Virus record (IMG/VR): IMGVR_UViG_3300022198_002230
Location: 1 to 25,619 of that record
DNA from: a virus
Length of the DNA stretch: 25,619 nt
Reading direction: 5' to 3' (one strand)
Positions within the stretch are counted from its first letter, which is position 1; each line of letters begins with the position of its first letter. The notes under the pieces are model-generated. The model saw only the letters and a list, made by a program, of their open reading frames with translations, had not been told where the DNA came from and did not search any database. Shown here piece by piece: positions 7,547 to 11,236 of this stretch. The position numbers were made by a program, and so were the translations under genes.

Positions 7547-7606
7547 GTATTGTGTGTATATATACTCTCTTCACTACGTTCAGAGAGAGTATATATACCA
7601 CACTAC
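7547..7606 (-). repeat. Long intergenic hairpin with shared loop (copy 1)
   Basis: Inverted repeat with a core stem of about 15 bp (GTATATATACTCTCT against its complement), extended by a mismatched outer stem of about 8 bp. On the minus strand the loop contains GAACGTAGTGA, which recurs in the hairpins at 8745-8803 and 10153-10211 although the stems differ. Neither side has a T-tract, so it is not an obvious intrinsic terminator. Strand is assigned by gene direction; the repeat itself is nearly symmetrical. Confidence 0.85.
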
Positions 7607-7612
7607 TAATAG

Positions 7613-7687
7613 AAGGGAGGTTGGGATTCGAACACAACTGCCATCAGCCTTTTACCACACTGATGTACGCACCGACTGCGCTCCCTT
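7613..7687 (-). ncRNA. tRNA-like cloverleaf element
   Basis: On the minus strand a perfect 7-bp acceptor-like stem (AAGGGAG with CTCCCTT) encloses three arms: a D-like arm (CGCA, loop GTCGG, TGCG), a middle arm of 6 bp (CATCAG with CTGATG) with an oversized 12-nt loop, and a T-like arm (GTTGTG with CCCAAC, one mismatch) carrying the canonical T-loop TTCGAAT. Total 75 nt. The U8/A9 linker is missing and the 12-nt anticodon loop gives no readable anticodon, so it is probably not a decoding tRNA. It sits in the gap between two minus-strand genes, as the ribozymes do, and could be a substrate for RNase P or RNase Z. A decayed tRNA gene is the alternative. Confidence 0.65.
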
Positions 7688-8744: not shown

Positions 8745-8803
8745 GAGAGGTGTTGTATATATCTCTCTTCACTACGTTCAGAGAGATATATACTAACACT
8801 CTC
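8745..8803 (-). repeat. Long intergenic hairpin with shared loop (copy 2)
   Basis: Inner stem of 14 bp (GTATATATCTCTCT with its complement) and an outer stem of about 9 bp (GTGTT/AACAC and GAGAG/CTCTC with a one-base bulge). The minus-strand loop is GAACGTAGTGA, identical to copies 1 and 3. It begins at the stop of the 48-aa gene and ends 5 nt before the leader motif. No T-tract. Confidence 0.85.
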
Positions 8804-9259: not shown

Positions 9260-9570
9260 AGGTCAATGATTACGCCCTTCTCTTCGAGGGCATCGGTGAT
9301 ATATTCAGGGAGTTCGAAGCATCCATCCCACCCAGTGAGGCGTACATCTCCGTTGTCATCCCAGCACACTTCGAGCACACCGCCTGCATAGAAGCGCTCC
9401 CCCCTTGACTCAACGTCATACGTCTTGTACCGTCCACCATACCTGTGGTTGGGGTCAATCTCGATGGTGGTGTCCATCTCTACGTTCCCTGCTCGGTCGT
9501 GGTCGCCGTACAGGGTGCTTGTCATAGCTACGTGTGGTAGCGTGGTCTTGAAGTTGAGTTTGAATTTCAT
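9256..9570 (-). CDS. Hypothetical beta-rich protein
   Basis: 104 aa. Strand-rich throughout: MKFKLNFKTTLPHVAMTSTLYG, VEMDTTIEIDP, GGVLEVCWDDNGDVRL, then a helix near the end (LPEYITDALEEKG). No family recognised. Overlaps both neighbours by 4 nt. Confidence 0.7.
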   Translation of the reverse strand: MKFKLNFKTTLPHVAMTSTLYGDHDRAGNVEMDTTIEIDPNHRYGGRYKTYDVESRGERFYAGGVLEVCWDDNGDVRLTGWDGCFELPEYITDALEEKGVIIDL

Positions 9571-9842
9571 TGGTCGATGTTTTCGGAGTCCACGATGATG
9601 TCGCAGAGCAACTTCTCTTGGAGTTGCTCGGCATCGTCAGCCCATGAAACGAGCGTGTCGATGGCAAGTTTTGCCGTGGATGTGCCAGCTTGTGGCACGT
9701 TTGAGAGGATGGAGGCCATCCCCTTCACGTCGTCAGGCACAAGCCGAGCGCACCGATTGAGTTCGTTGAGTCGCTTCCCGTGGTGGAAGTCGTTGAGGAA
9801 GAGCACCGCCGCACCGACGGGCTGAGAAAAGAAGTTGTCCAT
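9567..9842 (-). CDS. Hypothetical helical protein expressed behind a hammerhead ribozyme
   Basis: 91 aa, helical (MDNFFSQPVGAAVLFLNDFHHG...; DTLVSWADDAEQLQEKLLCDII). No family recognised. The ATG at 9842 lies 27 nt downstream of the predicted cut site of the hammerhead at 9864-9913 and 12 nt after the shared leader motif. It heads a coupled run that continues to 8803. Confidence 0.7.
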   Translation of the reverse strand: MDNFFSQPVGAAVLFLNDFHHGKRLNELNRCARLVPDDVKGMASILSNVPQAGTSTAKLAIDTLVSWADDAEQLQEKLLCDIIVDSENIDQ

Positions 9843-9854
9843 GAGATTGGAAAT

Positions 9855-9864
9855 TTGAAGTTTG
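9855..9864 (-). promoter_or_regulatory. Shared 5' leader motif CAAACTTCAA (copy 3)
   Basis: Minus-strand CAAACTTCAA, 12 nt before the ATG at 9842. Its first base is the last base of hammerhead stem I (strand 3' of the cut), so it stays on the mRNA after cleavage. Confidence 0.75.
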
Positions 9865-9913
9865 ATACAGACCCCGTAAGGGGTTTCGCCTATTCAAGGC
9901 TCATCAGTGTACC
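9864..9913 (-). ncRNA. Type-I hammerhead ribozyme 1
   Basis: All invariant hammerhead parts are present in order on the minus strand: stem I strand GGTACA, CTGATGA, stem II GCC-TTGAATA-GGC, GAAA, stem III ACCCC-TTAC-GGGGT, C, then stem I strand TGTATC. The cleavage triplet is GTC at 9872-9870, so the cut falls between 9870 and 9869. Stems II and III are closed by loops and stem I is open, which makes it type I. Stem I pairs over 6 bp with one G-U. It occupies the gap between the stop at 9921 and the ATG at 9842. Cleavage would leave a 27-nt leader on the downstream gene. Confidence 0.92.
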
Positions 9914-9920
9914 TGTGGTG

Positions 9921-10124
9921 TCAGTATGGGGGCTTGTCAGGTGATGATGAGAGAGCTGCATCAATCGCCTTGGACATTAAATACTCTTCGAGTTCTTCAT
10001 CCAAGTGGTAGTCGAGGATGTACTGCCTTGCCGCAGGGTCGTCGCCCAACACCCTGTATACATCTACACTTGTCATGTAGCCTGATTGGATGACGGAGTC
10101 GATGATGTCTGAAACGTTTGACAT
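9921..10124 (-). CDS. Hypothetical acidic helical protein
   Basis: 67 aa from ATG 10124 (MSNVSDIIDSVIQSGYMTSVDVYRVLG...), with acidic helix LDEELEEYLMSKAID. The shared leader motif ends 12 nt before this ATG, which supports the start. Its stop is 7 nt from hammerhead 1. No family recognised. Confidence 0.7.
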   Translation of the reverse strand: MSNVSDIIDSVIQSGYMTSVDVYRVLGDDPAARQYILDYHLDEELEEYLMSKAIDAALSSSPDKPPY

Positions 10125-10152: not shown

Positions 10153-10211
10153 GAGAGGGTTCGTATATTACCTCTCTTCACTACGTTCAGAGAGTAATAT
10201 ACTCACCTCTC
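10153..10211 (-). repeat. Long intergenic hairpin with shared loop (copy 3)
   Basis: Inner stem GTATATTAC/GTAATATAC plus CTCTCT/AGAGAG (one-base bulge), outer stem GAGAGG/CCTCTC, minus-strand loop GAACGTAGTGA. The stem sequence differs from copies 1 and 2 on both sides at once, so pairing is kept. It lies between the small membrane-peptide ORF and the leader motif of the 10124 gene. Confidence 0.85.
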
Positions 10212-10312: not shown

Positions 10313-10540
10313 TTATTGATTATCAACAGGTTCGATTGACTTGATGTTGTGTCCATTTGGCACAAGTTCGAGTGCTCTCTTACGCGCATGGTCGATCGAC
10401 CACGCCTTGAACGTGAGCGCATCCCAGTCATCTCGGTCGAAGCCGTAGTAGTAAACCATTCGGTACTCCTTAGAAGGAGTAGATTTGGGGAGCCAATCGC
10501 TCATCGTGCCCCGCTTGGGGTAGCGCTCCCATACGTTCAT
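10313..10540 (-). CDS. Hypothetical small protein
   Basis: 75 aa from ATG 10540 (MNVWERYPKRGTMSDWLPKSTPS...). YRMVYYYGFDRDDWDALTFKAWSIDHARKRALELV suggests strand-helix-strand-helix. ATGA coupling to the preceding gene decides the start. No family recognised. Confidence 0.65.
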   Translation of the reverse strand: MNVWERYPKRGTMSDWLPKSTPSKEYRMVYYYGFDRDDWDALTFKAWSIDHARKRALELVPNGHNIKSIEPVDNQ

Positions 10541-10908
10541 GTGAGCTTGATTTCGCAGTTGTTCTTGAAGTCCCAAATGGCTTCCTCACCACGCGCTTTC
10601 GCAAGTTCGAGAGCCACTTGCTTGGACTTGACTACGTCAGAGATTTCGATGAAGGCATAGTTGTCGTCGTTCACCCACGCACCGATTACCTGCATACCCG
10701 TGTCGGGCTGACGCTTCATGAACTCAACTTTGAGTTTCATGATTTCTCGGAACTTGTTGAAAGACAAGTCGTTGTTGTCCTCCATCTCGACGGAATCCGC
10801 CGCACCTCCAACGGCATAGCCGTCATTTCCTGCATAGGTGAGCAGGTCAGCGTTTACGCTGAAGCCCTCGCTCTCTTGAACGAGGAAGTATAAGGATTTA
10901 ATTGTCAT
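10537..10908 (-). CDS. Hypothetical protein expressed behind a hammerhead ribozyme
   Basis: 123 aa from ATG 10908 (MTIKSLYFLVQESEGFSVNADLLTY...). Mixed fold: two strands, a Gly-rich turn (GNDGYAVGGAAD), a helix (NKFREIMKLKVEFM), a strand (NYAFIEISDVV) and a C-terminal helix. No family recognised. The start lies 27 nt after the predicted cut of hammerhead 2 and 12 nt after the leader motif. Confidence 0.7.
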   Translation of the reverse strand: MTIKSLYFLVQESEGFSVNADLLTYAGNDGYAVGGAADSVEMEDNNDLSFNKFREIMKLKVEFMKRQPDTGMQVIGAWVNDDNYAFIEISDVVKSKQVALELAKARGEEAIWDFKNNCEIKLT

Positions 10909-10920
10909 CGTAGATGAATT

Positions 10921-10930
10921 TTGAAGTTTG
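10921..10930 (-). promoter_or_regulatory. Shared 5' leader motif CAAACTTCAA (copy 5)
   Basis: Minus-strand CAAACTTCAA, 12 nt before the ATG at 10908, overlapping the end of hammerhead 2 by one base exactly as copy 3 does for hammerhead 1. Confidence 0.75.
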
Positions 10931-10983
10931 ATACAGACACCACTTTCGTGGTGTTTCGTCCAATCAGGACTCATCAGTGTACC
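10930..10983 (-). ncRNA. Type-I hammerhead ribozyme 2
   Basis: Minus strand: stem I strand GGTACA, CTGATGA, stem II GTCC-TGATT-GGAC, GAAA, stem III ACACCAC with GAAA tetraloop and GTGGTGT, C, stem I strand TGTATC. The cleavage triplet GTC is at 10938-10936, so the cut falls between 10936 and 10935. The core and stem I equal hammerhead 1, whereas stems II and III differ in sequence and length but remain fully paired. It lies between the stop at 10996 and the ATG at 10908; cleavage would leave a 27-nt leader, the same length as at hammerhead 1. Confidence 0.93.
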
Positions 10984-11181: not shown

Positions 11182-11236
11182 GTATCTAAGATATATACAC
11201 TCTTCATAAATGAAGAGAGTGTATATATCAAGATAC
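11182..11236 (-). repeat. Long intergenic hairpin (copy 4, different loop)
   Basis: Stem of about 18 bp with one bulge (GATATATACACTCTTCAT against its complement), extended by GTATCT/AGATAC; the loop is only 2-4 nt. It occupies the same position as copies 1-3 (before the leader motif) but lacks the GAACGTAGTGA loop. No T-tract. Confidence 0.8.

Follow-up and report, generated by a model that had tools for sequence, protein, structure and literature searches.

A compact family of type I hammerhead ribozymes, predicted to be self-cutting, at gene junctions of environmental phages

Is a hammerhead-like sequence in a short gap between two phage genes a genuine ribozyme motif, and what would it do for the transcript? 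The question is raised by the window, i.e. the whole 25,619-nt stretch of DNA from a marine phage analysed here. The first-pass annotation had placed a type I hammerhead with a complete core and three stems on the minus strand at 9864–9913; sequence, pattern, fold and covariation in relatives bear out this assignment (hammerhead A). Its minus-strand RNA reads GGUACA-CUGAUGA-GCCU(UGAAU)AGGC-GAA-ACCCC(UUAC)GGGGU-C|UGUAUC. Stem I (GGUACA, 9913–9908, with UGUAUC, 9869–9864) has 6 bp including one G-U; the other elements are CUGAUGA (9907–9901), stem II (GCCU/AGGC, 9900–9897/9891–9888, loop UGAAU at 9896–9892), GAA (9887–9885) and stem III (ACCCC/GGGGU, 9884–9880/9875–9871, loop UUAC). The cleavage triplet is GUC, with C17 at 9870, and an A at 9914 and at 9863 flanks the element. 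The three stems are exactly those of the minimum-energy fold. The fold energy is unremarkable (z −1.0), and stem I is lost from the centroid structure, which consists of stems II and III and one further small helix.

The intergenic gap around hammerhead A is 78 nt long, from the stop codon at 9923–9921 to the ATG at 9842–9840, in agreement with the phage gene junction reported in the first-pass annotation. Upstream lies a minus-strand gene for an unknown 67-aa protein (9921–10124); downstream is gene A (91 aa; 9567–9842, minus strand), which has homologues and gave no PHROGs match and no Pfam match. Hammerhead chemistry predicts cleavage after 9870 on the minus strand; this is the 9870/9869 point already proposed. 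The predicted cut would be followed by a 27-nt leader, UGUAUCAAACUUCAAAUUUCCAAUCUC (9843–9869, minus strand), and then AUG; leaders of this type recur at other junctions.

A second copy, overlooked at first, was recognized by the pattern scan and by covariation at 10930–10983 on the minus strand (hammerhead B). The loose core pattern has only two sites in the window, both of them these minus-strand hammerheads (17 overlapping matches; shuffles gave a mean of 2.1 and a maximum of 12). Hammerhead B consists of stem I (10983–10978/10935–10930), CUGAUGA (10977–10971), stem II (10970–10967/10961–10958), GAA (10957–10955) and stem III (10954–10948/10943–10937), with C17 at 10936. It is situated 1.07 kb upstream of A in the transcript; stem I is identical in the two copies, while stems II and III are different yet complementary. 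A 27-nt leader (10909–10935, minus strand) again precedes a gene, gene B (10537–10908, minus strand), whose 123-aa product has a weak match to phrog_17808 of unknown function. Both copies carry the conserved CUGANGA and GAAA core and have GUC as the NUH triplet.

The Rfam 15 scan of the window reported no hammerhead family at gathering score. The first-pass annotation had regarded a non-significant covariance-model score as evidence against its hammerhead; with Hammerhead_1, whose gathering score is 34, A reached 13.0 and B 19.4 bits, so that, taken literally, its own test speaks against the element. The same check turned out to be uninformative for this subclass: the Rfam library produced no gathering-score match in 20 other loci of the family either (122 kb; 19 picked by the family core pattern and one by a match to the R1 model described below), which indicates that Rfam is blind to the compact subclass. 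With none reported in 20 loci that have the family, Rfam was rejected as an arbiter for insensitivity. The best Rfam match was RAGATH-1 (RF03152), with 21.7 and 24.9 bits, below the gathering score of 56.3. Hammerhead_1 matches of 12.7 bits in the elemo phages were taken as chance.

Evidence independent of Rfam came from relatives in viral contigs. The first scan of these contigs yielded 16 stretches, two of which (L003 and L015) had no stems and were discarded as chance. In an alignment of 20 copies, none of the 15 pairs is broken in any sequence, the A15.1-U16.1 pair is A-U in all rows, and double changes occur at seven pairs; cells with double changes number 35, compared with 9.3 in shuffles. 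All four Watson–Crick pairs were seen at stem I pairs 2–5 and at stem II pair 2. The type I stem order with an open stem I is thus supported by the fold (for A) and by covariation (in the 20 relatives). As the aligned copies had been picked by a stem-requiring scan, a control with shuffled flanks (mononucleotide shuffle) is the cleaner test. For this control we used a broader pattern, restricted to the core, to parts of stem II and to the outer U's of loop II; its matches comprised at least 120 stretches in viral contigs and 24 in bacterial genomes. Among the matches listed, stem I has its full 6 bp and stem III is 4 bp or longer in 125 of 130 distinct viral sites, a combination reached by 0.04% of shuffled flanks. 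Covariation and the shuffled-flank control together establish that the motif is real. For contigs of bacterial genomes, 8 of 25 pattern matches are complete hammerheads; the majority are incomplete and were rejected.

The architecture of the family is uniform in features that the search pattern did not require. Stem I ends at 6 bp in the 127 viral copies among the matches listed; an A stands on its two sides in 126 and 127 of these 127, and G-C closes it in 122. Position 17 is C or A, with U in none of the same 127 copies (G is barred by the pattern rule). Position N7 varies: it is T or C, plus A in two contigs (L320 and L327). N7 is the single position of the hammerhead core known to tolerate any base; since the pattern fixes the other core positions, this variation is only supportive. 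Conservation of the A flanks and of the loop II U's would fit a tertiary contact of stem I with loop II, on which rapid cleavage at low magnesium depends. No Watson–Crick covariation was found between loop II and the stem I flanks, and a Watson–Crick pseudoknot between them was rejected for this reason.

Several copies depart from the simple form. Some seemingly broken hammerheads contain long inserts of 70–150 nt in loop III (L319, ∼830–1000; L320, ∼1090–1275; L246, 11408–11560; L287, minus strand from 5227). Stems I and III are intact in these copies; the inserts of L319 and L320 are apparently structured, and an Rfam search recognized no family in those two. In L004 (4219–4310) and L018, a second hammerhead directly behind the first has lost the A15.1-U16.1 pair and is probably a decayed duplicate. 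Contig L239 (minus strand) has five compact hammerheads in a row within about 1.9 kb, most of them 25–35 nt before an ATG.

A model, R1, built from the 20 aligned copies recovers further members in contigs retrieved solely through their terminase. The family is unevenly distributed: among 48 terminase-related contigs, many of which are fragments, 8 have it. The R1 model also finds members in cultured Flavobacterium phages, with 52 bits in elemoA and elemoE and 39.6 bits in elemoD and elemoF; the elemoA RNA, whose predicted cut falls within NC_055852 17286–17351, reads GGCAAA-CUGAUGA-...-GGUC|UUUGUC-AAACUUUAAAA-...-AUG. At NC_055852 17275–17382 (plus strand), the annotated hypothetical gene elemoA gp68 runs antisense to the hammerhead and is probably not a real gene. 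Copies are present in Pelagibacter phage Jormungand EXVC012P and in a fosmid pelagivirus as well; at MT375528 38083–38265, the 3′ end of the annotated hypothetical gene Jormungand gp49 overlaps the hammerhead. Records of Cellulophaga, Maribacter, Tenacibaculum, Azobacteroides and crAss-like phages had no convincing match to R1, and matches of 14–17 bits (Calle_1, Gundel_1 and one inside the window's terminase gene) were taken as chance. The window's terminase is 31–41% identical to terminases of Flavobacterium, Maribacter, Cellulophaga and Tenacibaculum phages and 49% identical to that of an uncultured spring podovirus; judged by this terminase, the host of the window phage is probably a flavobacterium. 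A 1.6-kb stretch of window DNA had no match in named phages.

The position relative to genes is equally regular. Among the matches listed, the median distance from the predicted cut to the ATG of an ORF is 26 nt, and 81% of the distances are within 10–45 nt, compared with 21% for random positions. A purine-rich, Shine–Dalgarno-like stretch between cut and ATG was seen (uncounted) in many copies, for which reason the hosts are probably diverse. Separately, type II-like candidates stand before small genes in Streptomyces phages Hank144 and Tefunt (L325 and L326) and Rhodobacter phage RcRudolph (L328); they were read by eye only, as GGCGAAACCCC...GGGGUC...CUGAYGAGCC.

In the phage group of the window, a leader like UCAAACUUCAA...AUG precedes many genes, and the slot directly upstream of it is taken by one of two elements, a hammerhead or a long hairpin whose apex is often GAACGnAGUGA. 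When 92 junctions were surveyed, 60 fell into the stable-hairpin class (defined by an energy cut-off), 23 into the hammerhead class and nine into neither; among these nine, some look like spurious leader matches, and the L320 junction has a hammerhead whose loop III carries a long insert. Long hairpins with the conserved apex were observed in contigs L307–L323 and on the minus strand of the window at 10153–10211 and 8745–8803 (both with apical GAACGUAGUGA) and at 7552–7603, each at another junction with the same leader downstream. A perfect hairpin at 11190–11229 (minus strand) marks one more junction, with a similar leader. Near the last of the three long hairpins, at 7613–7687 (minus strand), a sequence resembles a tRNA: it has a 7-bp stem like that of an acceptor arm and a T-arm-like GUUCGAAUCCCAAC; ARAGORN and Rfam both failed to report it.

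The two elements exchange at the same junction. Homologues of gene A (L320–L323) have a hairpin there, and L321 continues past its hairpin with TCAAACTTCAAATTTCCAATCTCATGGACAACTTC, exactly like the window. Homologues of gene B mostly have a hammerhead (L307, L309–L311, L313, L314, L316 and L317); one, in L312, has a hairpin instead, with the same leader as L311. The best clue to function comes from this swap: whatever the ribozyme does, a long hairpin can replace it. The loci of this clade contain 42 such hairpins, 40 of them with the leader. No T run follows them, and a role as terminators was rejected on that ground; they are candidates for processing sites of the RNase III type or for an RNA element not described before. 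In T7-like phages, RNase III sites between early genes split the polycistronic transcript by means of hairpins and a host enzyme. By analogy, the elements of the window and these sites would share their location at cistron junctions, and the alternative hairpins would be alike in form.

Taken together, we think it probable that the compact type I hammerhead, present in two copies, cuts itself between cistrons and thereby gives neighbouring phage genes separate messages whose ends are defined; most likely, a polycistronic phage mRNA is cut and each downstream gene is given a short leader. While the polymerase moves through, the RNA would fold and cut itself after C17 (9870 in A; 10936 in B). 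Established hammerhead chemistry implies this cut and its end groups: the downstream message would begin with a 5′-hydroxyl and a 27-nt weakly structured leader before the AUG, and the upstream one would end in a 2′,3′-cyclic phosphate after the hairpins of stems II and III. The cut would separate neighbouring phage genes and free the start site, and a hairpin in the same slot of relatives may be a processing or insulating element with an equivalent role. Cleavage during infection, and its usefulness for cistron separation and start-site exposure, are what we infer from these features. A precedent makes cistron separation plausible: haloviruses HF1/HF2 have an mRNA whose 5′ end was mapped to within 3 nt of a hammerhead site that lies 13 nt before a start codon (PMC3088659). 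A wider reading is possible, if speculative: phages would hold two interchangeable kits for the same junctions, a host-independent self-cutting ribozyme or a hairpin for a host nuclease (RNase III-like), with the ribozyme a general mRNA-maturation module across unrelated phages and the few copies with loop III inserts possibly signal-responsive.

An unlikely alternative is that the element no longer cuts and is only a structural leader or 3′-end hairpin acting on stability or translation. A plain hairpin can indeed replace it at the same junction, and its fold is not exceptionally stable; however, the core, the GUC/GUA triplet and the A flanks are fixed while the stems change freely, and the core position that varies, the tolerant N7, gives further (only supportive) weight against this reading. 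Improbable, too, is excision by A and B of the 1,066-nt segment between them (10935–9870) as one, possibly circularized, RNA, in the manner of retrozymes and other elements flanked by ribozymes. The window and several related contigs do contain two copies that point the same way, but several records have one copy only, spacing and enclosed genes differ, and the distance of each copy to the start codon that follows it is fixed. We consider it very improbable that the elements chiefly mark DNA recombination boundaries between gene modules, with RNA cutting secondary. Conserved leaders at many junctions and elements swapped at a sharp boundary would fit this idea, yet stem sequences vary with pairing kept, which means selection on RNA structure and not on DNA homology, and the architecture recurs in phages without the leader. 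Chance resemblance, suggested by the shortness of hammerhead cores and the low Rfam scores, is rejected by covariation and by the shuffled-flank control, whose rate compares with 96% of real sites among the matches listed.

The family has known systems beside it, from which it differs in detail. As in canonical type I hammerheads (RF00163), stem I is open, stems II and III are closed, the core is CUGANGA plus GAAA and the cleavage triplet is NUH; the canonical stem I, however, has an internal loop or bulge, where that of the family ends after 6 bp and is flanked by two A's, and stem II of the family is short (4 bp) with a U-N-A-N-U loop. RAGATH-1 resembles the family in that stem I is open and stem II is short; in the RAGATH-1 model (RF03152), by contrast, stem I has 5 pairs, a single stem II pair is annotated, and there is an upstream hairpin, which is not evident in the window copies. 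Phage and prophage hammerheads of all three types, sometimes clustered, have been described, and transcript processing was proposed for them (PMC3088659, PMC6155905, PMC7761336). Those of Perreault et al. 2011 (PMC3088659) are likewise intergenic in phages and sometimes clustered around single genes; HHphage of HF1/HF2, 13 nt before a start codon and with transcript processing proposed, has core insertions near C3, and Bcep176 and PaP3 have core variations (PMC3088659), whereas the window copies have a standard core. In the open-access literature searched, which did not extend to the 2011 supplementary alignments, we found no description of the compact subclass or of the ribozyme/hairpin exchange, and both appear to be new; the literature search found no transcript-data paper on the elemo phages.

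Routine Rfam annotation thus overlooks a family found in >100 viral contigs. It constitutes a large set with a fixed architecture, a fixed distance to the start codon and a natural replacement of ribozyme by hairpin at the same junction. Given this architecture, the swap and the members in cultured Flavobacterium and Pelagibacter phages, its role is directly testable. The compact family, for which self-cutting is predicted from sequence, is common in environmental phages.
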